Positions 231 to 38,169 of a stretch of 64,000 nt of DNA are shown here, in pieces. The stretch is taken from the NCBI GenBank assembly GCA_025617745.1, contig CM046859.1, positions 992,001 through 1,056,000 of the forward strand, in the 5' to 3' direction. Numbering within the stretch: position 1 is the stretch's first letter; the number at the start of each line of letters is the position of its first letter. This stretch comes from Heliocidaris erythrogramma. Its lineage: Eukaryota > Echinodermata > Echinoidea > Camarodonta > Echinometridae. The notes under the pieces are model-generated. The model was not told the origin of the DNA and made no database searches. It saw only the letters and a program-made list of their open reading frames with translations. The translations under genes and the position numbers were made by a program.

Positions 231-1500
231 TCATGTCCTCTCCGCGCCTCAACATTCACGCATGGGCTTCTAATATTCATAAATTTGCCAGAGCTATAGA
301 CAGTGGCACACACTGCAGGTCTTTTCTTGGACTTCTCCAAGGCCTTTGCTACTACATATCATGATATATTGTATAAGTTATCTCACTATGGTATCCAGGG
401 AAATGCCTTGGAGTGGTTCAGGAACTAACCTAGTGATAGAAAACAATATGTATACATGAATGGTTTTGAATCGACCCTTCAGTCAATTACTTGTGGTATC
501 CCTCCAGGCTCTCTGTTAGGCCCGCTCCTGTTTATTTTATGTACACTAACGATCTACAAAACTCATCTGCAGTCTTGTCACAATCCTCTTTGCCGATGAC
601 TCCAATATTTGTTGCTCTCACCATAACCCTGTTACACTTCTGAACATTGTAAACACTGAATTAATTTGCGCTTTTGACTGGATGAAAGCTAACAAATAAT
701 TGTCGCTCATCATAAAATAAACAAATTTCTTGCCATTTAGTAATTCTATATCATTTTTCGGTGTTTATATAAACAGTAAGTCGTGGAAAGTTCAAATTTA
801 TTGTTGATGTAATTTGTAAACTCATGTAATTCATGTGTACATGTATATTGAACAAGGTCTTATATCTTAATTATCGTACTAGCTCCACAACCTTCATGGA
901 CAAAATGTAAGAATTGTAAAGAATGTTGGATTTCGTGCACATACAAGCTTTTCTATAACTTTTATATTCTTGAGATATCTGATTTGTACTTTCTTGGAAT
1001 CTTGGAATATTGGAATATTTATATAATACGAACTTTCGAAAAGTAATTTACCGCATGATTCCTTCCTATTTTCCAACCCAACATTATGCGGTACATTCCT
1101 ACCCAACTAGACAGACAAACAATTTCCACCTCCCCTGAGCCCCAACCGTGTTTGCAAACAAAACAATCACCTTTACTGGACCCAAATTCTGGAATAGCCT
1201 GCATGGAAAACGAACTGGTTGATAGCTCCTCCAACAATTCTGTCATGCTGGATCTTACAGGTGATGGTCACACAGCCTTTTCTTCTTGTTACACTGTCCT
1301 GCCTTTACAATTTTACTTTCGCTTCTTTCTTCTTCTTTTTCTTCTTTTCTTTAGTCTCTTTCGTCGTTTTCTTTTCTTTCCTCCACGTTATGAGCATTGC
1401 TCTCCTTGTTCGGGATCGTTTAGTAAATCTGATATTTCTATTCCGTTTCGCTTTTTATTACATATTAATCACAATTACTTATAATATTAAGTACTCTAAA
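231..1500 (+). pseudogene. Decayed CR1-like LINE, reverse transcriptase and C-terminal remnants
   Basis: Fragments of a non-LTR retrotransposon ORF2 can be read on the plus strand across many stops and shifts. About 315-420 reads as an RT block resembling FLDFSKAF followed by HYGIQGNALEWF. About 485-720 has the PPGSLLGPLLF block, an FADDSN catalytic box and an FDWMKANK segment. About 940-1020 matches the linker after the palm domain, and 1097-1210 matches the conserved LINE C-terminus (YPTRQTNNFHLP, then FTGPKFWNSL). A T-rich stretch follows. The order is collinear with the well-preserved copy at 18.7-22.4 kb, so this is one old copy rather than separate insertions. It encodes no functional protein. 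Confidence 0.75.
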
Positions 1501-2118
1501 GGAGAGCCTAATCATTTACAAGCCATATGCTTTTTATTTAAGCTCCTCCTCGTTTACAAATCCCCCCCCCCTTTCGTTCCTACATGTATATCTCTCTAAA
1601 CTTTCCACCTATTTACTGCACTTTATACTTGATTTTAGTTCTTTACTCGTACGTTTTGAAATTGACGCTTAATATATGCTAGTAATAATTGTTTTTGATG
1701 TGGAAGTGGAACAAATGAAAATTCAGAATTCAAACTTCAAACTATACCAATATGCCATATATACAAATATTACTGTGTTATTATAAAACTCCTCTCTCCA
1801 TTTGCACAAAAAAAGATCACAGAAACTATCTACTTTAGATAGTGTAATCAGTGAACCGGCCCAAATTTATAACGACAATACTTGGCAAAACGGAGGTTTC
1901 CACTGCAGTCAAGAACTAATGTCAATTATAATTATAACATAAAATCATTAACAATCACACAAACCATAATCCACATTGTTAAAAGGTACATAAATCGATC
2001 ATATTTTGCTGGTTTTACAGCGTTTGTCTGACGTCTAGATATCCCATTTATATGTAAAAAAAGGAATAAGAAAAACAATAATGACTGTTGATTTGCACAC
2101 TTTGAGTGTCCTTCTTTA
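1500..2118. other. Non-coding stretch, nothing recognised
   Basis: AT-rich sequence with a short C run at 1562-1571. No open frame with family resemblance, no terminal repeats seen. Confidence 0.5.
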
Positions 2119-2700
2119 AAACGTCTGGCATTGTCCATTCATGTATCTTGGGACTATGGCGAATCTTTTGATATTGATTTCTAAGGGTTTCCTTTCCAGC
2201 TGATCTAGCTCAATTTTTGGACCCCCTTTGGGGGCGTCTGGCGGGCACCCCCACCACTTAAAATGTCTGGCATTGCTCATTCATGTACCTTGGGACTATG
2301 GCGAATCTTTTGACGAAGGACTTTACGGGTTTCCTTTCCAGCTGATCTAGCTCAATATTGGGGGTTGGGGCACTTTAGGGGCGTCTGGCAAGCACTCCCC
2401 TCACTCAAAACGTCTGGCATTGTCCATTCATGTATCTTGGGACTATGCCGAATCTTTTGATATAGGTTTCTAAGGGTTTCCTTTCCAGCTGATCTAGCTC
2501 AATTTTTGGACCCCCTTTGGGGGCGTCTGGCGGGCACCCCCCACCACTTAAAACGTCTGGCATTGTCCATTCATGTACCTTGGGACTATGGCGAATCTTT
2601 TGATATAGGTTTCTAAGGGTTTCCTTTCCAGCTGATCTAGCTCATTTTTTGACCACTTTGTGACCTCCCCCTGGCCACACCCACCACATAGAACATGCCA
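2119..2700. repeat. Tandem repeat, about 4 units of ~143 bp
   Basis: The phrase ACGTCTGGCATTG recurs at 2121, 2263 (one base different), 2410 and 2553, giving periods of 142, 147 and 143 bp. Each unit also contains GGGACTATGGCGAATC and TTCCTTTCCAGCTGATC. The last unit diverges after about 2640. Minus-strand open frames here are by-products of the repeat, since the same peptide recurs in several units. The repeat stops just before the LINE ORF1 remnant at 2.8 kb and could be either a local minisatellite or LINE 5' repeats. Confidence 0.8.
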
Positions 2701-2801
2701 GACGGTCAATTCGTTATATCCGACTGTGCGATCTTTACATTCATGCACATGAAAATTGGTTTCCTTTCCAGCTAGGTTGACCTCCCTGGCTCCCGGACTA
2801 A

Positions 2802-2957
2802 AAACAATTTCTCTATAAAGCTTGTATAGCAAGAAAGAAGGCAGGCTTCGGCTTCCTATTGAGAAACAATGGGAAAATCCTCGAGAAGAAACGTGCTGAT
2901 TCTGCTGCAATATTGATCGCTTCTGAAGCAGACCTGCTCAAGATTAAGAAGCAATAA
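2802..2957 (+). pseudogene. LINE ORF1 C-terminal remnant
   Basis: A 51-codon open stretch without a start codon ends in a stop at 2955-2957. It contains KKAGFGFLLRNNGKIL, then a lysine-rich turn, then SEADLLKIKKQ. The pattern basic-arm / FLL..NGKI / DLLKIK matches the last part of the C-terminal domain of L1/CR1-type ORF1 RNA-binding proteins. It sits about 160 bp upstream of recognisable ORF2 sequence, the expected ORF1-ORF2 order. The RRM and coiled-coil parts are absent. The call rests on motif shape only. Confidence 0.5.
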
Positions 2958-3119
2958 TTTCCTTTACTGATCAATACAATTATATGAACTCTCTGTGATA
3001 ATGATAGATACTGACGATAATTATTCATCTAACACAATTCAGTCTTTTGCATGGTCGCCCGAGGAATTTAATGATAACTTTATTTCTTGTTCCTCTTCTA
3101 TGTTAAGTTTAGTGTTTCG

Positions 3120-4404
3120 CATATCAATATTCGGTCCTTAAATAGAAACTTTAAGAGTTTCAAAATATTCTACCAAAATGTTATTAAGCATGAATTCAGC
3201 AGTTTATTTTTCTGTTCGTAATTATAATTTTGAACATTCATGTCGTGAGAATGGTAGAGGGGGTGGTGTAGGAGCATACATAAGATCAAACTTCAAATAC
3301 AATGTTCTGGAAATGAATGTTTGTCATGCAGAATCTCTCTGGTTGCATATCCCTATAGGAAATAGATCTTTTATAGTGGCAATTGTATACAGGAAACCAA
3401 GTACGAATCTAGATGAATTCCAGGAAAGTTTGCTGAATGTATTACACCAATGCAAGATAGACAAACACAGTTGTATTCTGATGGGAGATTTTAACGTTGA
3501 TATTAGTATTGAAAACTCAAATGATAATTTAGTAAACTCATTTACATCACCCTTACAATGTCTAGGTATTGAACAGATTATAACAACGCCCACTCGTATT
3601 GCAAAATACTCCAAAACTCTAACTGATCACATTTATAAGAATATAGATGTCTGTAATATTCGTGCGGGGGCAATAATTACTGATGTCTCAGACCATTTTC
3701 CAGTCTGTGCCTTATTCAAGAATGTATGTCTCACCAAATCTTCTACAAAATCTCCGTAGGTAACAATGAGGAATTTTAGACGATATCAGAAGTCTTCGTT
3801 CCATGAAGATCTTGCATCTCTACCTTGGAATGAGGTATATGAATGTAAAGAAGTTGATGAAGCATACTCAAAGTTTCTCGCTCTGTTCATGAAAACTTGT
3901 AGTAATAAGCATGCACCACTTGTTACAAAATCTTATTCTAAAATACATTCTAAACCGTGGATAACAAAGGCAATTCACAAATCGATTAAGACAAAGCATC
4001 GACTGTACTCTAAGGTTCTCAAATCAAACTTTGATCCTGATGTGCATTTAAAGTATAAGAAATATAGAAATATGTTAACGACAACTTTGCGTAAGGCAAA
4101 ACAAATACATTATGGGAACTTATTCCAGAAGCACAAAGGAAATGCTTGTAAAACTTTGAATACAACCAATGAATTATTAGTTAGACAAGATGGTAGCAAA
4201 GCATCAGTGGAGAAATTAAACTATGATATAAATGATGTACAGCGTGAATCAATTAACCCTAAAGAAGTTGCTAAAATTTTTAATGATTTCTTTGTTAATG
4301 TTGGTCATAATTTAGCTCAACAAATCCAGAACGCCAATATGAAATTTGATCATTATCTATGTGATCCTGTTCAAGAATCGTTTTTTCTGGCTTCCAATTA
4401 CTAA
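3120..4404 (+). pseudogene. LINE ORF2 endonuclease and linker, broken
   Basis: ORF2 begins near 3120, where a frame reads HINIRSLNRNF, the first AP-endonuclease motif carrying the catalytic Asn. The frame shifts and the TETW block (catalytic Glu) is missing. The open frame 3178-3759 resumes at the part equivalent to YSLRGYD and carries GGGVGAYI, GDFNVD, a TDHIYKN block and SDHFPV. A stop precedes the next open frame 3766-4404, which is the linker between endonuclease and RT (KPWITKAIHKSIKTKHRLYSK). The domain normally nicks target DNA; without the catalytic Glu this copy cannot. Confidence 0.85.
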
Positions 4405-4999
4405 GAATGAAATAGAAAATGTGTTGAAAGACTCTGATAGAAAAAAGGCGTGTGGGCATGATAATGTCCCGATGAACCTTATTTGTGATGATGCTGACTA
4501 TATATCTCAGCCACTTTCATTTGTGTTCCACTTATCATTACAATCAGGCCAATTTCCAAATTCAATGAAAATTGCGAAAGTGAGTCCAGTCTTTAAAAAG
4601 GGTGCCAAAAATCAACCAGGTAATTATAGACCCATATCGGTTTTACCCGTTTTAAATAAGATTTTTGAAAAATTGGTTAATAATCGCTTGGTGAGTTTCC
4701 TGGAAAGAAACAGCATATTGTATAAGCATCAATATGGTTTCAGGGAAAAGTATAGTACCAAACTATCAGTAATAAACTTGATAAATCAACTGATACATTA
4801 TCAAGATGAAGGAAGAACAACTGTTGGTATTTTCATTGATTTTGCGAAAGCTTTTGATACTATCAATCACACTATATTATTATCTAAACTACAGAATTAT
4901 GGTGTTCGTGGACTCGCATTGAAATGGTTTAGAGATTACTTGCATTGTAGGTCTCAATATGTACACCACAATGGTGCAACTTCAAAAGAAAACGGGTAA
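4346..4999 (+). pseudogene. LINE ORF2 reverse transcriptase fingers/palm, truncated
   Basis: A 217-codon frame, shifted relative to the linker, carries the RT landmarks KKACGHDNVP, KVSPVFKKG, NYRPISVLPVLNKIFEK, HQYGFREKYST and FIDFAKAFDTINH. It ends at LHCRSQYVHHNG and a stop. The following PQGSxLGPLLF block and the FADD active-site box, present in every intact relative, are missing, because the next open frame starts downstream of them. The lesion is an internal deletion of roughly 80-100 codons. Confidence 0.9.
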
Positions 5000-5010
5000 A
5001 TACGGAAGGT

Positions 5011-5634
5011 TTGATCAAAATGAAGGGCCACATTCTGAATGAGGTTGAAGTTGCATCCTTTGTTGGGATTCACATTGATAATTATTTAACCTGGAAGAAT
5101 CATATAAATAGAACATGTACAGTGCTCCGCAAAAAAGTTGGAATTATGTATCGGTTGAGGCACCTTGTTCCACGTTACATACTATTATTGTTGTATCATT
5201 CTTTTGTTCAGCCACACATTTCCTATGGCCTTGAAGTATGGGGATGGGCGTATATACAGAAAATGATTGTTAGGGCTATTACCTTTAGTGGTTTTATGAC
5301 ACCGTCTGCGCCTTTATTTCTCGCTTTGAAAATCTTAGATATTTACAAGTTTCACAGGTTTCAAACAACTACCTTCATGTATAAGTTAATACATCAACTT
5401 CCCCATTCTGTATATGAATATTGCCAGTTTTTCGATCACAGGTATCATACGAGACAAAAAGATAGCAAAAGTCTCATTTTACCAAAAGTAAAGACTGAGC
5501 ATGGAAAGAGGTCAATTTCATTCTACGGTTCTAGAATATGGAATTCATTGCCCTTAGATATTAAAGAGAAACGGTCTGTCAAAACATTTTGTAGGACGTT
5601 AAGAGAAATGATGCTAATGGAATATCTAGAGTGA
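5011..5634 (+). pseudogene. LINE ORF2 C-terminal domain
   Basis: A 207-codon frame begins at the post-palm segment (SFVGIHIDNYLTWKNHI, equivalent to FLGLLIDDKLSWKHHI in the intact copy). It continues through LLLLYHSFVQPHISYGLEVWG and the terminal signature SFYGSRIWNSLPLDI. The stop at 5632-5634 is the natural end of ORF2. The block matching HTRQK..SLILP is the conserved CR1-like C-terminus. It is collinear with the RT fragment upstream. Confidence 0.85.
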
Positions 5635-5639
5635 TGTAT

Positions 5640-6183
5640 CACTTTTTGGTTTGTTTGTTGTTGTTTTTTGTGTGTGTTTTGTTTCTTAAATTTAAACATA
5701 TTTCAAGACATCATATTATATTCCACACTGGGGTAAATAATTAATTGATTCACATCACGTTAGTCATGATTTGACAGCTAGAGGTATATAGTACATAACT
5801 AAAATAAATTATATGAGTTTGCATTATTGCTTTAAAAATGTTATTACCAAGAAAAAATTTTCCACTTTTCATTCCTATTCACATCTGTGTTCTTATTTAC
5901 CCCGTTTTACGGTACACCATTTTTTTCGTTACCAATCCGTCCCTGCACTTCAACGCAGAGGGCAGCATAACAATACATGGTATAAGGTAAATATCACAAC
6001 ACTACTGTCACACCTCTCCCTTTTTAAAAGATAGATTAGGTCTTGCATTATTGAAAAGGATTAAGTATCAAGACTGTATGCATACAATATCAAAGTTTGT
6101 AACTGAATTGGTTTGAATAATAAATATCACGTTTTACAACCGAGATAGGCAAAATGAATGGATTGTGTGTGCGTGCGTGTGTG
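5640..6183. other. LINE 3' flank and unclassified sequence
   Basis: T/G-rich LINE tail to about 5690, then AT-rich sequence. A 73-codon frame at 5813-6034 has no recognisable features and is treated as chance. Confidence 0.4.
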
Positions 6184-6441
6184 TATGAGAGAGAGAGAGA
6201 GAGAGAGAGAGTGAGCAAGGCAGAGGCAGAGAGACTGGGACGGAAGAGGGAGAGGGACAAGGGAGTGGGAGACATAGTAGGACAGGGACAGCTGGAGGAG
6301 GATATTATAATTGTTATCATTATTATCGTCGTCATCATCGGCATCATCATTATTGATACCATTATTATTATTATTAGTATTAATTTTATTATTGTTACTG
6401 TTACAATGATTATTATTATTATTACTATATTATTTTTTTTT
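6184..6441. repeat. GA, then ATT/ATC microsatellites
   Basis: A (GA)n run at about 6187-6212 is followed by purine-rich sequence, then an imperfect ATT/ATC trinucleotide run from about 6302 to 6441. Open frames here on both strands are low-complexity artefacts. Confidence 0.85.
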
Positions 6442-6878
6442 CATTAGTGTCCAAAAACATTGGTATTATATCGAGAATCAAACATTTTTTGCCCAATCAC
6501 TTCTACGTAATTTTGTGCTCTCATACTCCCATATTTTTCATATTGTAATCTTGTTTAGGCTAATTCCTACAAGTCAAATACTCAAAAGCTTACATTACTA
6601 GGGAAGAAGATCATTAGTATATTATCGGGAATACACTATGGCTCCCACATTGGTCCTGTTTTTAAAGAACTTAATTTACTTACATTAAACCTGCATCAAC
6701 AATATATTTGTGACCCAACGCCTCAAAACCTACAATAAGTTGCCAAAATTATTTGTTTTTATTTTATACATTTTCTGAAAGTACAAATTCTCAGCTTTCC
6801 AATGGTATATCACTTGCCTAGTTTACTCAATGATAACACCTTTAAATATCACACTCTTAAAAATGCGTGGTCAAAAAT

Positions 6879-7171
6879 AACCCCAAACGGGGTTACAAAT
6901 GACCCCGCATGCGGGATCAACTATGCACAAACCCCGTACGGGGTCACATTGACCCTGCACATGCGGGGTCACCCAAAGTAACCACATAGCGTGGTTACAT
7001 TTCGACCCCGAATGTGGTCAAAATTTAACCACGATTGCGTGGTCATTTCTGCATAACTTGACCCCGCATAATTTGACCCCGCATACTAATGATCATTACC
7101 TTATAACCCCGTCAAAACGTACGGGGTCATTTCTTCCGACCACGCAACGTGGTCATTTCCCGTCGGACGGG
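6879..7171. repeat. Left array of ~10 short palindromic hairpins
   Basis: Units read directly: 6879-6894 (AACCCC/GGGGTT), 6901-6918 (one mismatch), 6931-6944 (ACCCCGTACGGGGT, perfect), 6951-6970 (one T.G wobble), 6979-6997 (TAACCAC/GTGGTTA), 7004-7019 (imperfect), 7028-7043 (ACCACG/CGTGGT), 7106-7127 (ACCCCGT/ACGGGGT), 7138-7154 (GACCACG-CAA-CGTGGTC, perfect) and 7159-7171 (CCCGTC/GACGGG). Arms change together between the CCCC/GGGG and CCAC/GTGG forms, so base pairing is kept while sequence varies. Confidence 0.85.
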
Positions 7172-7689
7172 GTTGATACTTCTGCCGGATGCGCGTGTAC
7201 CATCCACGTTTCAAAGATTAAAAAAAAAAGAAGCATATCATAACATATTTTGTATATTTTGCTCACTATGACCTATAACCTATCCTCTCCTATCGTATAA
7301 CATATCATACCCCTATCATCCTACTTTAACCCTACTCCTATTATAGTCCTACATCGTACACCTATAGGGACTGTATTGCAGTGCTTGCTAAAAGTGGTTA
7401 AAGATTTTAATTTAATTTTCTAATGTAGATTTTTAGATCTTAAACCTAATTACATGTTTGAATATGTACAACATAATAATTAGTATACATACATTTTTCA
7501 TCACATTTCAAAGTGCAATCATTGCATAAAAACTTAAAAATCAAGTGTCATTTATATATATAAATTCTGGTTGTTTACGGTTGCTCATGGGTATTCAGGA
7601 TACATCATGAATATTCATGACAATGGCCCAACGTTTAACCAAGTAGAAGTCGGACCAATACTTTCCTGATGAATAAGCAATATTTCAAA

Positions 7690-7903
7690 TGGTTAGTGAT
7701 TAACCAGTGAAATTGGAACATTGTGACCAACATATTTTTGGAAATAACCCATATGGTGTTGACCAATCGCATTGGTACATTTTTTGACCAGTCCTTTTTT
7801 AGAGTGCATTAAAATGACCAGTTTTTGCGTGGTCATTTTAATGCAGCGGGAGCATTATTGATCGAAAACAACCCCGAAACGTGGTCGAATAAATTCGACC
7901 ACG
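7690..7903. repeat. Right array of hairpins, including perfect 15-bp and 10-bp stems
   Basis: TGGTTA/TAACCA at 7690-7706; ACCAAT-CGC-ATTGGT at 7762-7776; a perfect 15-bp stem at 7806-7820 paired with 7830-7844 (loop of 9 nt); and a perfect 10-bp stem CGTGGTCGAA/TTCGACCACG at 7880-7889 paired with 7894-7903 (loop TAAA). Confidence 0.85.
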
Positions 7904-8179
7904 CAATATGCGACCCCGCATTTTTAAGAGTGCACATTTAGAATCAGTATGTAACCAGCAAGCAATAACTCCTATTCAGAGAAAATGGCCATTTAATTTC
8001 GGAACAAAAGAGTGCTAAACCTTCGCTCTCTGCGTGCGCCCAAGTAAAATTGGGTATTTAAATGGCCATAGCAAGCTGTATGAAGGGATTATCAGATTAG
8101 GCTGAAATTTGGCAAGCTGCTCTAGGAGAACCTATTCATTACTCACTCCAAAAATCAATTTAATACCTTTAGAGGTAAA

Positions 8180-9390
8180 GTAGTAATTTGTCATTGAATG
8201 AAAGTATTACAAAAGCTCTCCAAACATTCACTAGCTTTACGGGTGAAAGAAAAGGAGTCATTTTAAAATGCCCCCAAAACATATTTCTAAGTTAAATTAC
8301 GACTCACAACCTTGAGACATGATAGAATGATAATGAAACTACCCATTTCTGATCCAAGCAAATTTACTATTTTGGGCTTTTTGCTACGTTTTGAGGTGGC
8401 GGGTCACATTTTATGTTTACAATTATGAACAACATCTTTTCGGCACAATTTAATGATCTCAGCCATTTTTAATGCAACTCGGAAACTCATAGTGCAGACC
8501 AAATTCATATACCTAAACATAGAACCCGAAGATTTCAATAAGATATTCGATACTCTGGGCCAAATTCGCTTTCCTTGCAAACTTTTTCCCATAAAGCAAA
8601 AATGTAATTAATCGCTCGCTATAAAATCCCCTTTTTTATTTATATTTGTGTTTGACGTCGTCATCTTCTTGTAGAAGAAACGTTTTCCCCCTATTTTGCA
8701 TGTTGTTACCATCTTTTAGAAGATACTTTATCAATTGATTGAATCGAGTCAGCTATGTTATATTCTGACTGAACCATACTCCTCGAAGTTTACAATGTCA
8801 AACATTTATTTCTGCTGATCATTTACGTACATGCCTCAGCTGTTGCTAGGCCGGGTGAATATTTTTAAGTATTATGTAACATGGTATACTCCTCGAGAAA
8901 GTGTTGTCAGCCGGTTTTAAAATGATATGTATGCTGCCTATTTTAGTACTCTAATGCACTAGTACACTGCAATCTTTGATGATGTCATTGTATACACCTT
9001 ATACAGAAGGCTCGAAATGATATGCAATCTAATTAACTTTAATTCAAATGAACTTATCCACAACTATGCCTAATTTTTCTTCTCACTTTTCTCCATCTAC
9101 TGTTTTCTATTACCTGCACTCGTACTAATAATGATGATCTTTCAGTAACTTGTGTTTAATTGCTATGAGTGTTCCCAACACAAGCTTTGAATTATTTACT
9201 GTATTGTACTCTATCATGGCTATGTTCACCACATTGCTACACATGTATCCTTTGTATATAACATTGCACCGATGAGAAGGAAATAAATTTTCAATTTCAA
9301 TTTCAGTCAATTATGACTATTGATGTGCGTGCACATTACTCTTTTCTCATCTACATTAATTTTAATCCATCATTTTCATTGTACTGTATA
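8180..9390. other. Non-coding stretch, nothing recognised
   Basis: AT-rich sequence without long open frames, terminal repeats or family resemblance. The minus-strand frames at 8404-8592 and 9125-9310 have no features and look like chance. Confidence 0.5.
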
Positions 9391-19333: not shown

Positions 19334-20023
19334 TTAGTGTGTATAAAAAGCAATAAAAGATTTTTTTAGTTTTAGTTTAAATGTGCCTAAGCTTAGGCTC
19401 TCTCTCATGTTCAGTGGAAGGGAGTTCCAAAATTTGGGAGCAGTAAATATAAAAGTATTCTGTGCGAGTGCTGTACGAGTTCTAGGGAGGTGATAAAGAT
19501 TAATTTGTCTAGTGGGATAGTGATGAATTTCATTATTTGCTTGAAATATATTATTAAAAACTTTGGGTAGTTCTCCTTTGTGAAACTGATACATAAGTAT
19601 GGCAAGATTTAATCGATAAATGTCGTAAATTTTTAGAATATTATTAGTATAAAAAAGACCATCAGAGTGGTGTCTGTAATGTACATGACTTATGATCCGC
19701 ATAGCTTTTTTTTGTAGTAATAGAATTCTATCTAATAGGCATGCCGTGCTGTTTCCCCATGCAAGAATTCCGTAATTTAAGTAAGGAAGAACTAACGTGG
19801 AGTATAAAGATTTAAGAATATTGGGGGGAAATGTCCATTTTAGTTTGTTGATTATGCCAATATTTCTTGAAATAACCTTACATATGTTATCAATGTGATG
19901 TTTCCATGAAAGTTTGTCATCAATTAGTAATCCTAAAAATGTTGTTGTAGTAACCTGGTGTATTTGAATGTTATCTATTAAGATTGGGTAAGGTAGATGG
20001 TTAAATGTATTACTAAATAGCAT
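19334..20023 (-). CDS. LINE ORF2 C-terminal part, shifted by one base
   Basis: 229 codons, overlapping the main ORF2 frame by 11 bases. It begins at MLFSNTFNHLPYPI, which directly follows the LEKTNY expected after SLNLEK in relatives. It continues with FLGLLIDDKLSWKHHID, NIGIINKLKWTFP, LVLPYLNYGILAWGN, LQKKAMRIISHVHYRHHSD and the terminal HYPTRQINLYHLPRTR / TAPKFWNSLPLNM signature, with a natural stop. The 'start' Met is not a real initiator. The shift lies in an A-homopolymer (plus strand T7 near 20032-20038), so it is either a single-base mutation or a sequencing error. Confidence 0.88.
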   Translation of the reverse strand: MLFSNTFNHLPYPILIDNIQIHQVTTTTFLGLLIDDKLSWKHHIDNICKVISRNIGIINKLKWTFPPNILKSLYSTLVLPYLNYGILAWGNSTACLLDRILLLQKKAMRIISHVHYRHHSDGLFYTNNILKIYDIYRLNLAILMYQFHKGELPKVFNNIFQANNEIHHYPTRQINLYHLPRTRTALAQNTFIFTAPKFWNSLPLNMRESLSLGTFKLKLKKSFIAFYTH

Positions 20024-22427
20024 ATAATTGGTTTTTTTCTAGATTTAATGACAATTTATTAGCTTTAACCCAAGTGATAACTGAATTCAGTTCAGAATTG
20101 ACAAGTCGACAAAGAGTTTCTAAGTTTTTGTGTGAAAGGAAAAGATTGGTGTCATCTGCGTAAGTGATAAAGGAAAATAAATTCGATGATCTAGGGAAAT
20201 CGTTGATGTATAAAATAAATAACAATGGGCCAAGAATGGAACCCTGAGGTACACCACAAGTAATATTTCTTAGGTCTGACATATTATTTTCAATGGAAAC
20301 GTATTGTTGGCGTTTATATAAATAGTTACAAAACCAGTCTAAAACGATGCCTCTAATTCCATAATGGGACAGCTTATGTAAAAGAATTCTGTGGTCTATC
20401 GTATCGAACGCTTTAGAAAAATCTAAAAACATTCCTATTGTGTGAGTACCATCGTCAATAGAGGTAGCAACTTTGTTGATGAAAGACAAGATTGCATGTG
20501 ATGTATTATGACTTTTTCTAAAACCAAATTGACAGTCGTGTAAAATTTCATTCTGATTTAGAAAATCTACTGTTTGTGAAAAAACAATTTTTTCTAATAT
20601 TTTGGAAAATGTAGTTAATAAAGATATAGGCCTGTAATTTGATAGTACAAGAGGATTGCCTTTCTTAAAAATGGGTATTATTTTAGCTAATTTCATTCTA
20701 TTTGGAAAAACGCCTGTTCTCAAAGACAAATTACAGACATAAGTAAATGGTTCAATAATACATGAAATAATTTTCTTCGTAATGAAATTATCAATACCAT
20801 CGTGCCCGCAACTACGTTTGTTTGTGAAGTTATTCACCATATCAAGAATTTCACCTTCAATTACAGGAGCAAAAAACATAGAATTAGGGTTAGGGTTTTG
20901 TAAGTAATCAAGAAAATTTTTATCACTGTCGGGTATCTTGCTAGCTAAATTTGGACCCAACTCCACAAAATATTTATTAAAGTGATCTGAGATTTCTTGT
21001 AAATTGCTAACAGTTTTATCACCGATTTGTATTTTAGAAAATGTGTCTTTTCTATCATGTTTATTTAAAACTTCATTGATTATTTTCCATGTGCATTTTG
21101 CATCTTTTTTACAGTGAATAAATTGGCGTGAAAAATAATTTCTTTTTTCTCTACGTAATAATCCTGTCAGTGTATTTTTGTAATTTAAATATTTAGATTT
21201 GGAACTTTCAGTCGGCTTCGCTTTATATTTTAAATAAAGATTATTTTTCCTATTTATAGATCTGAGTAAGCTTGCCGTAATCCAAGGCGATTTGGGGGTT
21301 CTTTTTCGACTGCGATGGTTTATTTTTCTAATCGGGATACATTCATTAAATAAAGTAGTTAATTTATCCATAAACTCATCAAAACAACTATTAACTTCAG
21401 TAATATTATATAAACTACTCCAATCCAGTTCATCTAATCTGTTTTTGAGAGTGTTAATATTGCGTTCGGAAAAATTCCTAGAATAAGTTTTAGAGGGTTG
21501 ATGAGTTTGTTGTAAAATTGGGAAGTTCGCAAATATTGGGAAGTGATCCGTGATATCGGAGACTACAACTCCAGCTTGTGGAAAAGGATGCATGTTTGTA
21601 AATATGTTGTCAATTAGCGTGGAAGATTTTTCTGAGATACGAGTTGGTTTAGATATTAGTGGTACAAATGATGATGAGAGGAGCGTTCCATAAAATTCAT
21701 GAATAAAGGCATCAGAGTCGTATTTCAACAAATTGGCATTAAAATCTCCCATTAAAAAACAATCCTTACCACGTAGGATAGGGTGTGAGATAATGTTTTG
21801 CATGTTTAACAAAAAATCATTGTGACTGGAATTGGGAGGTCTATATACTATTCCAATCACGATATTTTTTCTACCCACAAAATCAATTTCAACAAAAAGT
21901 GTTTCAATCGAATCATTAATTTTGTTTAAAAGAGTTATATTATTAAAATTGAAATCAGAAGAAATATACAAAGCCACCCCTCCTCCAGATCTGTTGGGTC
22001 TATTATTCACTATTAGGTCATAACCACGGAGAGAGTATAATGAATGAGGTGTGTCAGAGAGCCAAGTTTCTGTTAGGCCAATTACGGAGCAATTTAACCT
22101 AAACCTGTCAAGAAGATTACGTAAGGAATCAAAATTACTATTCATGCTTCTGATGTTAGTGTGGAACAAAGAAAAAACAGTCTCATTAAGGTTTGAGAAG
22201 TGAGAAACAACTTGATTTTCAGTGTAGTAACAAGATGGGTTAACTTGCTCATGTTCGTTATCATCAAAAGGGACTTCAAAATCTTTATAATAAGTATTTA
22301 GAGCAGTGATCATATGATTGACAAAATTACTATCGGGATTGATATAATGGGAATGCAGCAATGTTTGAAAGGCATCTAAAAATTCGTCATTGGTTAAGTC
22401 ATAGCCAGGAATGTCATCAACCGCCAT
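20013..22427 (-). CDS. LINE ORF2: AP-endonuclease and reverse transcriptase (main part)
   Basis: 804 codons. Residues 1-85 are an acidic, unassigned N-terminus. The endonuclease spans about 86-300: HTNIRSMN (Asn91), LTETWL (Glu120), SGGGVALYI, MGDFNAN (Asp228), LIDNIF and SDITDHFP (His295), so the catalytic set is complete. The linker 310-530 includes PWITASLLRSINRK and NPNPNSMFF. The RT runs from about 535: KRSCGHDGID, NYRPISLLTTFSKILEK, CQFGFRKSHNTSHAIL, FLDFSKAFDTIDHR, CGVPQGSILGPLLF and the active site YADDTN near 756. The frame ends shortly after KLSLNLEK, where a run of seven A replaces an expected six. It performs target-primed reverse transcription. Apart from that indel no lesion is visible, so it may be recently active. 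Confidence 0.9.
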   Translation of the reverse strand: MAVDDIPGYDLTNDEFLDAFQTLLHSHYINPDSNFVNHMITALNTYYKDFEVPFDDNEHEQVNPSCYYTENQVVSHFSNLNETVFSLFHTNIRSMNSNFDSLRNLLDRFRLNCSVIGLTETWLSDTPHSLYSLRGYDLIVNNRPNRSGGGVALYISSDFNFNNITLLNKINDSIETLFVEIDFVGRKNIVIGIVYRPPNSSHNDFLLNMQNIISHPILRGKDCFLMGDFNANLLKYDSDAFIHEFYGTLLSSSFVPLISKPTRISEKSSTLIDNIFTNMHPFPQAGVVVSDITDHFPIFANFPILQQTHQPSKTYSRNFSERNINTLKNRLDELDWSSLYNITEVNSCFDEFMDKLTTLFNECIPIRKINHRSRKRTPKSPWITASLLRSINRKNNLYLKYKAKPTESSKSKYLNYKNTLTGLLRREKRNYFSRQFIHCKKDAKCTWKIINEVLNKHDRKDTFSKIQIGDKTVSNLQEISDHFNKYFVELGPNLASKIPDSDKNFLDYLQNPNPNSMFFAPVIEGEILDMVNNFTNKRSCGHDGIDNFITKKIISCIIEPFTYVCNLSLRTGVFPNRMKLAKIIPIFKKGNPLVLSNYRPISLLTTFSKILEKIVFSQTVDFLNQNEILHDCQFGFRKSHNTSHAILSFINKVATSIDDGTHTIGMFLDFSKAFDTIDHRILLHKLSHYGIRGIVLDWFCNYLYKRQQYVSIENNMSDLRNITCGVPQGSILGPLLFILYINDFPRSSNLFSFITYADDTNLFLSHKNLETLCRLVNSELNSVITWVKANKLSLNLEKNQLYAI

Positions 22428-22440
22428 GGATCAAGATAAT

Positions 22441-35673: not shown

Positions 35674-38169
35674 AGCTAGCTTCTTAAACCCACCAAGTAG
35701 ACTCGCCTCCCTTGGAAACAGCGACCATTGCTCCAATTCATGAACTAGTTAGAAAGAACCAAAGTAATATACTTACCCGCCCTCTCAAAGACTCTCCCAT
35801 TAGAGAATTTGGTCAATGGATTGTTAACCATGCTTGGGATAATGTATATTCTCAGTTGTCAAGCAATGATGCTATCAGTGTTTTCAATAGTGTACTGAAT
35901 AGAGCTTACATAGACCATTTTCCCCTATCTAAGTCTGTGCTCAACAATAAAGACAAACCTTGGATGACGTGTAAAATCAAGCAACTCTTAAAGGATAGGG
36001 ACAAGGCTCATCAAAAGAATGACCATACTAAATGGGATTCTTTGCGTAATCAGGTACAATCAGAAATAGGTAAAGCTAAAGCTAATTATTACAACCAAAC
36101 TATACAGGATTTGAAGAGTTGCCAACCAGCGAAGTGGCATAAACACATTAAGAAACTATGTAAACTAGGTTATAAGAGAGTTGCTATACCCGGTGCTGAC
36201 AACGATCCAGTTGGTACAGCATCAGCCATCAATACCCACTTTGCGACAATATGCAATCAATTACCACCTCTAGATCTTAACTTACTCCCGGCATACCTAC
36301 CTGCGAATTCCCCTCCACCTACCATCTATCGGGGGCAAATTTTGTCTGTTCTGAGAAAACTAAAAACCAATAAATCAATTCATCACAATGACTTACCTTC
36401 TCGCCTAGTCAAAGAGTTTGCTGTGGAACTCGCAGAACCTTTGACATACCTTTTCAATAAATGCTTACTGGAAGGCATTTTCCCAAAGGACTGGAAAACA
36501 TCGTCCATCACTCCTGTACCGAAGGACAAAGAAATAAGCTCTTTCGACCAGCTAAGGCCTACATCTCTCACCCCGTTGTTCTCGAGAGTACTTGAATCAT
36601 TTATCGCAAAGTGGGTAGTGGAGGATATATCGAACCATGTTGATAAGAAACAGTTTGGGAATGTCAAGGGTTGTTCAACTACACACTACCTTGTCTACTT
36701 GCTCAAGTTTGTGTTGGAAGGCCTTGATAAACCTGGCCATTATGCCTATCTTACTACCATTGACTTTACTAAGGCGTTTGATAGGGTAAATCATTCAGTT
36801 GTAGTCAAGAAACTCATCCTGTTAGGTGTACGCAGATCGATCATCCCAATTATTTGCAGCTTCCTAACTGCACGCACTCAGAGCACCAAAGTCTGTAATT
36901 ACTACTCTCCCCTACTAGAGGTATCCTGTGGAGTACCACAGGGTACCAAGTTGGGTCCGGTTTTGTTTCTGATTCTTGTTAATGATGCTGTGAATGATTG
37001 CGAGAATCGATGGAAATACGTTGATGATTTAACACTTGGAGAAATTGTGAAGCGTAATGCTGAACCTACATTGCAATCTGTATTAGATCGTCTTTCAGTA
37101 TGGTGTAATGATAATGACGTGCTCCCCAAACCATCCAAATGTAACCTCATGACCATATCATTTTTAAGGAACTTAAACCCCAGGACCGACTTCCAGCTTA
37201 ACTCAACCCAACTCAATGTCGTTCAAAATCTCAAACTACTCGGAATCACAATTCAGAATGATCTAAAATGGAACTTACATATCTCAGATATTGTGTCAAA
37301 AGCATCCTGAAGATTGTACACACTATGTATCCTTAGGAAATCTAAGGCAAGCCTGGTGGATATGGTAACTGTCTACACTACGTACATAAGACCCATACTC
37401 GAATATTGTTCCCCTGTTTGGCACACCTCAATTACCCTAAATGAGAATAATAAATTGGAATTTGTTCAAAAGCGGGCCCTCAAAATAATTGTAGGCTATA
37501 ACGTGACTTATGCCAATGCCCTTGCCATAACTAAACTCACTACTCTATCTGATAGAAGAGATTCCCTTTTGCTAAGCTTTGGACAAAAAATCAAAAACTC
37601 TGATCACCACAAACACCTTCTTCCCGTCCCTAGATGTAATTCAAATTTAAGACAGCTTCGTAACATGACTGGCTTCCCTACAATTAAATGCAATACAGAG
37701 CGATATCGAAAATCCACTATCCCTCACCTTGCCAGAATCTTGAAATAAACTCCCCCCCCCCCCCCCCCCCCACACTTTGCATCCCAAACAGTTTCACTTC
37801 TCAGATTATACCTAGATGTAATGACTCATTTTACATGGTTATGGCTTTCTAACTTGGTTATATTTATGTATTGTTCCCAAATCTTCTCCTTTCTATCTAT
37901 CTCCTTCCTTCTTTCTCTTCCCTTTTCTTTCCTATTCTTTACTCTTTCTTTCTTTCTCTCACTTTTCACACTTGTTATCTTATTATTTGTGTAGCGTAAA
38001 TCTTAGTATTTTTGTTTTGCTTCCAATTATGTATCTTTTCATTATTTGATGCGATTCTATTGAATATATGCACATATATATCTGATTGTAAATTGACCCA
38101 TTCAGCCCCTGTGCTGCTGGTCAATCATCATATACCATAATAAATAAATAAATAATAAATAAATAAATG
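35674..38169 (+). mobile_element. 5'-truncated LINE flanked by 44-bp direct repeats
   Basis: A 44-bp motif beginning TACCTATATATATTTAATAT and ending ACTCCGATGTC is present at 35630-35673 and 38170-38213, immediately outside the LINE. The 3' side ends in an (AAAT)n tail at about 38139-38168. The motif could be an unusually long target duplication, or the LINE may have landed in a pre-existing tandem array, since the motif also occurs at 39223 and 39655. A poly-C run (37752-37771) lies in the 3' UTR. Confidence 0.8.
35712..37748 (+). pseudogene. LINE reverse transcriptase ORF, one in-frame stop
   Basis: Two frames in the same phase, 35712-37310 (532 codons) and 37314-37748 (144 codons), are separated by a single TGA (37308-37310). 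The linker includes KPWMTCKIKQLLKDRDKAHQ. RT blocks are LRPTSLTPLFSRVLESF, KKQFGNVKGCSTTHYLVYLL, TTIDFTKAFDRVNHS, SCGVPQGTKLGPVLF, the active site YVDDLT and LKLLGITIQNDLKWNLHI. The second part has TTYIRPILEYCSPVWH and FVQKRALKIIVGYNV. Upstream, another frame shows LGNSDHC, the last endonuclease motif, so the rest of the endonuclease is missing. The sequence differs strongly from the CR1-like copies and resembles I/Vingi- or L2-like RTs; the clade is uncertain. Confidence 0.85.

Follow-up and report, generated by a model that had tools for sequence, protein, structure and literature searches.

An intact transposon copy and its ends

The window that we analysed, a 64,000-nucleotide stretch of Heliocidaris erythrogramma DNA, contains at positions 6852-7932 one intact copy, 1,081 bp long, of a DNA transposon family that is dispersed and non-coding. 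The perfect 16-bp terminal inverted repeats given in a preliminary description of this locus were borne out when we read 6852-6867 against 7917-7932 from the sequence, and when lengthened to 21 nt, the two repeats are 95% complementary. The termini take the 5'-CAC..GTG-3' form of CACTA/EnSpm elements, with CACTCTTAAAAATGCG at both ends, the first letters being CACTC and not CACTA. No stop-to-stop open reading frame of ≥120 amino acids (aa) overlaps the element, the features of which are collected in Table 1. Elsewhere, the window holds non-LTR retrotransposon remains at 20013-22430 (- strand), 35688-37310 (+ strand) and 3142-4999 (+ strand), with reverse transcriptase in three frames and endonuclease in two, and a tandem repeat of 142 bp in 3.7 copies at 2116-2651.

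Table 1. Features of the transposon copy, with their positions in the window
Feature	Position	Strand	Remarks
Left target-site duplication, CA	6850-6851		CA on either side of the window copy
Left terminal inverted repeat, CACTCTTAAAAATGCG	6852-6867	+	Perfect, 16 bp; continues into half-site TGCGTGGTCA at 6864-6873
Left subterminal array of short palindromes	6878-7174		Mostly half-site TGACC[C/A]CG[C/T]A; some direct half-sites (7059, 7074)
A+T-rich non-coding middle	7201-7800		CCTATA-like stretch of variable length; no ORF of ≥120 aa
Internal terminal-repeat-like end, CACTCTAAAAAAGGACTGGTCAAAAA	7781-7806	-	May once have been the right end
Hypervariable palindrome site (perfect stem of 16 bp, loop of 9 nt)	7805-7845		
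Right subterminal palindromes	7869-7905		11-bp stem at 7880-7903 and overlapping mixed-arm palindrome at 7869-7887
Right terminal inverted repeat	7917-7932	-	Perfect, 16 bp; overlaps half-site CGACCCCGCA at 7911-7920
Right target-site duplication, CA	7933-7934		Same dinucleotide as the left flank

We searched the H. erythrogramma genome (1.06 Gb in 26 contigs) with the element as the query and found at least 58 matching pieces, on many contigs, from the best 40 of 642 first-look candidates; the number of copies is thus a minimum, and those sampled are biased toward the most similar ones. Forty copy regions, the window's own included, were taken for comparison. We treated 28 of them as copies with ends, the remaining 12 being truncated or having a different left end, and we removed three of the 28 (L015, L022 and L032) because their flanks were identical to those of another locus. 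Of the 25 copies kept, 24 have both ends; L034 is without its right end. The 25 copies diverge from their consensus by 0.3 to 3.8%, which marks them as young. With a length of about 1 kb, no open reading frame of ≥120 aa, terminal repeats and near-identical dispersed copies, the family has the characters of a miniature inverted-repeat transposable element (MITE).

Matching 2-bp flanks, within the 2- or 3-bp range of CACTA/EnSpm duplications, were found in 22 of the 24 copies with both ends (TA in 14, CA in 4, TG in 3 and TT in 1), the mismatched pairs being those of L018 and L027. The right end of L027 also carries a tandem expansion of AAATTCGAAT-like units adjoining the terminal repeat. In three regions whose left end differs on its inner side (L024, L035 and L037), the same dinucleotide likewise stands on both flanks (TA, CA and TA, respectively). 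At about 375-430, their left end retains CACTCTTAAAAAT and then differs (AACAGTCCC), which suggests a subfamily in which the left end has been exchanged.

Over 26 nt, the internal end-like sequence listed in Table 1 shows 85% complementarity to 6852-6877, and it has 3 mismatches to the terminal repeat. At that stringency, the terminal-repeat pattern matches six places in the whole window against 3.6 expected, a number that 15 of 100 shuffles reach, so such matches are no scarcer than chance would make them. Use of a downstream end may have added the last 126 bp to the family, this diverged one possibly having been the earlier terminus.

Short palindromes at both ends share a half-site

To assess the palindromes, we counted non-overlapping perfect stems of ≥6 bp with loops of ≤12 nt and compared the counts with those in 100 dinucleotide shuffles. 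The whole element holds 17 such stems, against a shuffle mean of 4.0 and maximum of 9. The excess is clear in the left part (6852-7200), with 10 stems against 1.2 (maximum, 6), and less clear in the right part (7801-7932), where there are 2 against 0.4 and the shuffle maximum is also 2; the middle (7201-7800) shows no clear excess (5 against 2.9; maximum, 6). The two arrays therefore hold 12 perfect stems, and adding the imperfect palindromes at 7003-7022 and 7869-7887 brings the number to 14. The preliminary description had spoken of at least 14 consecutive hairpins, a number that is reached only with these two imperfect members, and they are not consecutive but form two groups about 600 bp apart. 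The perfect stems that it gave as 15 and 10 bp are present and prove slightly longer, at 16 bp (7805-7845) and 11 bp (7880-7903).

Common to most of the stems is a half-site that reads approximately TGACC[C/A]CGCA, an exception being the left stem TAATGATCATTA at 7087-7098; the imperfect palindrome at 7869-7887 has a half-site in common with the 11-bp stem. With up to one mismatch allowed, TGACCMCGCA occurs 22 times in the window against 3.7 expected, and 14 of the 22 matches lie inside the element. A looser listing of the half-site comes to 37 places, chance matches included. Each terminal repeat has the half-site at its inner end as well, and the subterminal motif stands in direct as well as inverted orientation, as can be found in CACTA/EnSpm elements.

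Because of its termini, its target duplications and its subterminal motif array, we file the family as CACTA/EnSpm type. It is probably a non-autonomous cut-and-paste transposon of that superfamily (CMC) with binding sites in inverted pairs. The palindromes most likely serve the transposition machinery as pairs of binding sites, and since the half-sites mostly stand as inverted pairs, they have the look of hairpins. A related autonomous element would supply a transposase or a TnpA-like DNA-binding protein; that protein would bind the half-sites, mostly as palindromes, and its binding would bring the two ends together so that the element is moved in trans. The arrays probably lose and gain whole units. 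Gaps of unit size do occur in the left array, one 22- to 24-bp unit being absent from 8 of the 25 copies and one 15-bp unit from 4 of the 25.

Stem changes among copies include no compensated pairs

The preliminary description held that the palindrome arms switch together between two forms, so that pairing is kept, and it offered two inferences: hairpins bound by a transposase, copied and conserved by pairing, or an RNA folding into a series of stem-loops. The transposon with putative transposase sites fits the CAC..GTG ends, the 2-bp duplications and the half-sites at the inner ends; conservation by pairing does not share in this agreement.

Among 12 palindromes scored by hand, 6 have CCCC in both arms, 4 have CCAC in both arms and 2 are mixed. 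The arms are thus concordant in 10 of 12 cases, which gives the claim of joint switching weak support (Fisher p = 0.06). Concordance of this kind would also follow if palindromes had been duplicated as whole units, and the hairpins, being repeats of one another, are not independent.

The compensatory-change check for which the preliminary description had called was run on 24 aligned copies with 16 consensus stems; L027 was omitted because of its tandem expansion, and L011 and L034 were cut at the right. Relative to the consensus, 34 stem cells have changed (20 in the left part, 4 in the middle and 10 in the right part), some of the right-hand ones stemming from deletion variants of the 7805-7845 palindrome. 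Thirty of the changes break the pair, 4 give a G-U pair and none is compensated, a result of little power, since the copies are about 1% apart and few double changes are expected. Conservation of the stems by pairing is thus unsupported, and the paired changes that joint switching of the arms would lead one to look for across copies number 0 of 34.

Could selection on pairing nevertheless maintain the palindromes, with the arrays acting as DNA cruciforms or as a string of RNA stem-loops? In the left part, stem cells changed less often than non-stem cells (0.66% against 0.92% at non-CpG positions and 0.98% against 2.34% at CpG positions), and the same was true of non-CpG positions in the middle (0.25% against 1.17%), although the non-stem cells there include the length-variable stretch, where the alignment is unsure. 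In the right part, however, non-CpG stem cells changed more often than others (0.86% against 0.42%), the CpG positions giving 0.58% against 2.26%. Folded as RNA, 6852-7200 has a z score of -7.65, and none of 100 shuffles folds equally well, but this strong folding, which the palindromes impose, is all that the RNA reading has in its favour, and Rfam gives no match at gathering thresholds. With neither an Rfam match nor, in the low-powered comparison of copies, a compensated change, we set a structured RNA aside as unlikely. Weighing the folding, the concordant arms and the lower stem rates against the right-part rates, the borderline p value, the lack of compensation and the Rfam result, we consider selection on pairing very unlikely.

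A palindrome that exists in 25 forms

The palindrome at 7805-7845 differs from copy to copy. We compared this site in 36 of the 40 regions, having dropped L015, L022 and L032 as duplicates and L036 for want of the segment, and found 25 distinct sequences ranging from 28 to 93 nt, the commonest lengths being 43 nt (10 copies) and 67 nt (8 copies). In L026, L029 and L034, the palindrome is perfect, its 29-bp arms enclosing a centre of 3 nt, which is AAA in L029 and TTT in the other two; in L033, arms of 29 bp enclose a centre of 29 nt. The length of 67 nt recurs in L024, L027, L037, L042 and L045, whose arms have two or three mismatches. From the sequences, the window's own form can be read as the 67-nt form shortened by the 24 nt between a pair of TGGTCA repeats. 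Similar centre deletions seem to underlie several other forms, and the palindromes of L033, L038 and L041 have added or other sequence. The loop of L016 (CGCAAAAAC for GTTTTTGCG) was considered as an inversion, but it can be explained equally well by a deletion from the 67-nt form in mirror image.

On the nearly star-shaped tree of the remainder of the element, the forms look scattered by eye. The palindrome is not a unique hot spot of length change, since variation at about consensus positions 361-560 is as large.

Deletion between direct repeats is known at inverted repeats, and many of the length variants need slippage between direct repeats only. Template switching is also known to homogenise arms and invert spacers at inverted repeats (PMC8604942, PMC8794818), and it can give rise to hairpins as well as repair them (PMC8794818). 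The palindrome at 7805-7845 and other long perfect ones may arise and be reshaped by slippage and template switching in replication or repair, processes that, at hairpin-forming DNA, can match the two arms without selection for pairing. Judged from these footprints, slippage and template switching at DNA hairpins would explain the variation at 7805-7845 with no selection on pairing.

A rival reading would make the palindromes by-products only, hairpin-prone sequence multiplied by template switching and having no role in transposition. The hypervariable palindrome, the unit-sized gaps in the left array and the creation and mending of hairpins described for template switching (PMC8794818) all agree with this. 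Yet the half-site is found not only in both arrays but also where each terminal repeat meets the interior, and its spacing varies, as that of binding sites would. We think it quite unlikely that the palindromes are by-products alone and retain the reading of paired binding sites within a transposon.

Binding sites and hairpin-driven mutation might also be joined. Palindromic transposase sites could be self-renewing, template switching re-copying one half-site from the other arm, so that the array is kept perfect by mutation and not by selection. The traces at 7805-7845 that prompt this idea are the long forms, near-perfect in some copies (AAGGTCA or AGGGTCA) and perfect in others (GTGGTCA), together with the AAA and TTT centres. 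We offer it tentatively, as a possibility that we hold to be rather less than even. If it is true, the copies form a natural series for the measurement of hairpin-driven mutation.

CACTA-type transposases are present in the genome

A search of the genome for PF02992 gave 14 matches, 13 of them over the cut-off, showing that CACTA-type transposases are present. All 14 loci were examined as 10-kb stretches for the 13-nt end of the family with ≤2 mismatches. Some match to one end, with up to 2 mismatches, occurs in 12 of the 14, and none has, within these stretches, a left-type end with a right-type one after it. The only matches of the loci to the element are 15 to 19 nt long (E values of 0.008 to 0.12). 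Within the 10-kb stretches, then, the 14 loci offered no candidate for the autonomous partner with these ends.

One locus, L061, holds what appears to be a complete element of another family (977-8197; 7,221 bp), its right boundary resting on one copy. Its ends are CACTCTCC..AAGGGTG with TA on both sides, and an 877-aa frame contains PF02992 (E = 6.8e-15) and DUF1258. A search of L061 for CAC..GTG ends that agree at 12 of 14 positions gave no pair. A run of GCAAGCTTGC palindromes precedes the right end, where 6 palindromes compare with 3.6 in shuffles (12 of 100 reach 6); the left end (2 against 1.6) and a stretch of the transposase frame (1 against 2.0) show no excess. L061 resembles the present element in its CACTCT start, GTG end, TA/TA flanks and short palindromes beside the right end. 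It differs in having the PF02992 frame and in its motif, GCAAGCTTGC in place of TGACCMCGCA, and no match between the two is longer than 15 nt.

Other palindromic motifs lie near the right end in L063 (7 against 3.5 in shuffles; 3 of 100 reach this number) and in L071 (5 against 1.6; 1 of 100). The right-end palindromes of these three PF02992 loci are suggestive only. At 8860-9066, L071 has a single array of hairpins of the form ACTGGTTCCAGTT..AACTGGAACCAGT, the loops of which are found in both orientations.

The anatomy could be the same and yet the element be driven by another superfamily, be it Tc1/mariner-like, PHIS or an unclassified DDE group with 2-bp duplications. TA is the commonest duplication, in 14 of 22 copies, and the PF02992 loci include no partner, both of which would suit such a driver. 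Tc1/mariner elements duplicate a strict TA target, however, and the remaining 8 of the 22 duplications are CA, TG or TT, on which count we rejected Tc1/mariner; moreover, the CAC..GTG ends and the subterminal motif arrays point to CACTA. Another superfamily thus seems to us unlikely, and we keep to the CACTA/EnSpm assignment.

Searches of viral and prokaryote contigs with the terminal-repeat pattern gave 0 matches in each, as expected for an animal element. A fish CACTA-like terminal sequence also gave 0 matches in viral and prokaryote contigs, the papers in which one of its strings occurs have unrelated titles, and it forms no part of the evidence here.

Comparison with known transposons and template switches

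The structure at this locus is real, yet it is of a known transposon kind, and as a transposon family it is ordinary. What is unusual here, though only to a modest degree, is the palindrome with its 25 forms. A string of hairpins that appears to covary can arise without an RNA, from repeated sites in inverted pairs together with hairpin-driven mutation, and many similar copies of one palindrome would allow hairpin slippage and template switching to be measured in an animal genome. In the open-licence literature, the titles and opening lines of abstracts held nothing on this family or on hypervariable palindromes in a CACTA-type MITE.

The nearest likeness in architecture is the soybean CACTA element Tgmt*, which is described as having direct and inverted subterminal motifs with 12 potential stem-loops at the right border and 2 at the left (PMC2613891). 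The preliminary description's statement that ordinary MITEs have one big foldback overlooks this case of a CACTA element with a subterminal string of stem-loops. Tgmt* and the present element share a stem-loop-forming motif in both orientations, unequal numbers at the two ends and CAC-type termini. According to the same account, TNPA recognises the subterminal repeats of Spm/En, and the Tgmt* motif is discussed as a binding site for a TNPA-like protein, which is how we read the half-site here; that account leaves open whether the motifs compared are recognition sites (PMC2613891). In contrast, Tgmt* is a 20.5-kb coding plant element with a 3-bp duplication and another motif, whereas the present element is 1.1 kb long and non-coding and has 2-bp duplications.

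In their ends, CMCT transposons as a group mostly have CA..TG and duplicate 2 to 5 bp, as summarised in PMC12730594. The tunicate element ENS1_Cis and two wasp/virus MITEs, CMC-NA_1/2, are reported to have 5'-CAC/GTG-3' termini and a 2-bp duplication (PMC6004678), as the present element has, a likeness at the level of description. Like the present element, the two MITEs are non-autonomous and, in that report, without a known partner.

For the hypervariable palindrome, the comparison is with template-switch mutations at short inverted repeats, which have arm homogenisation and spacer inversion as the points of likeness (PMC8794818, PMC8604942). The switches described in those papers come from RNA genes and yeast coding genes, whereas here many palindrome forms occupy one position in a transposon.
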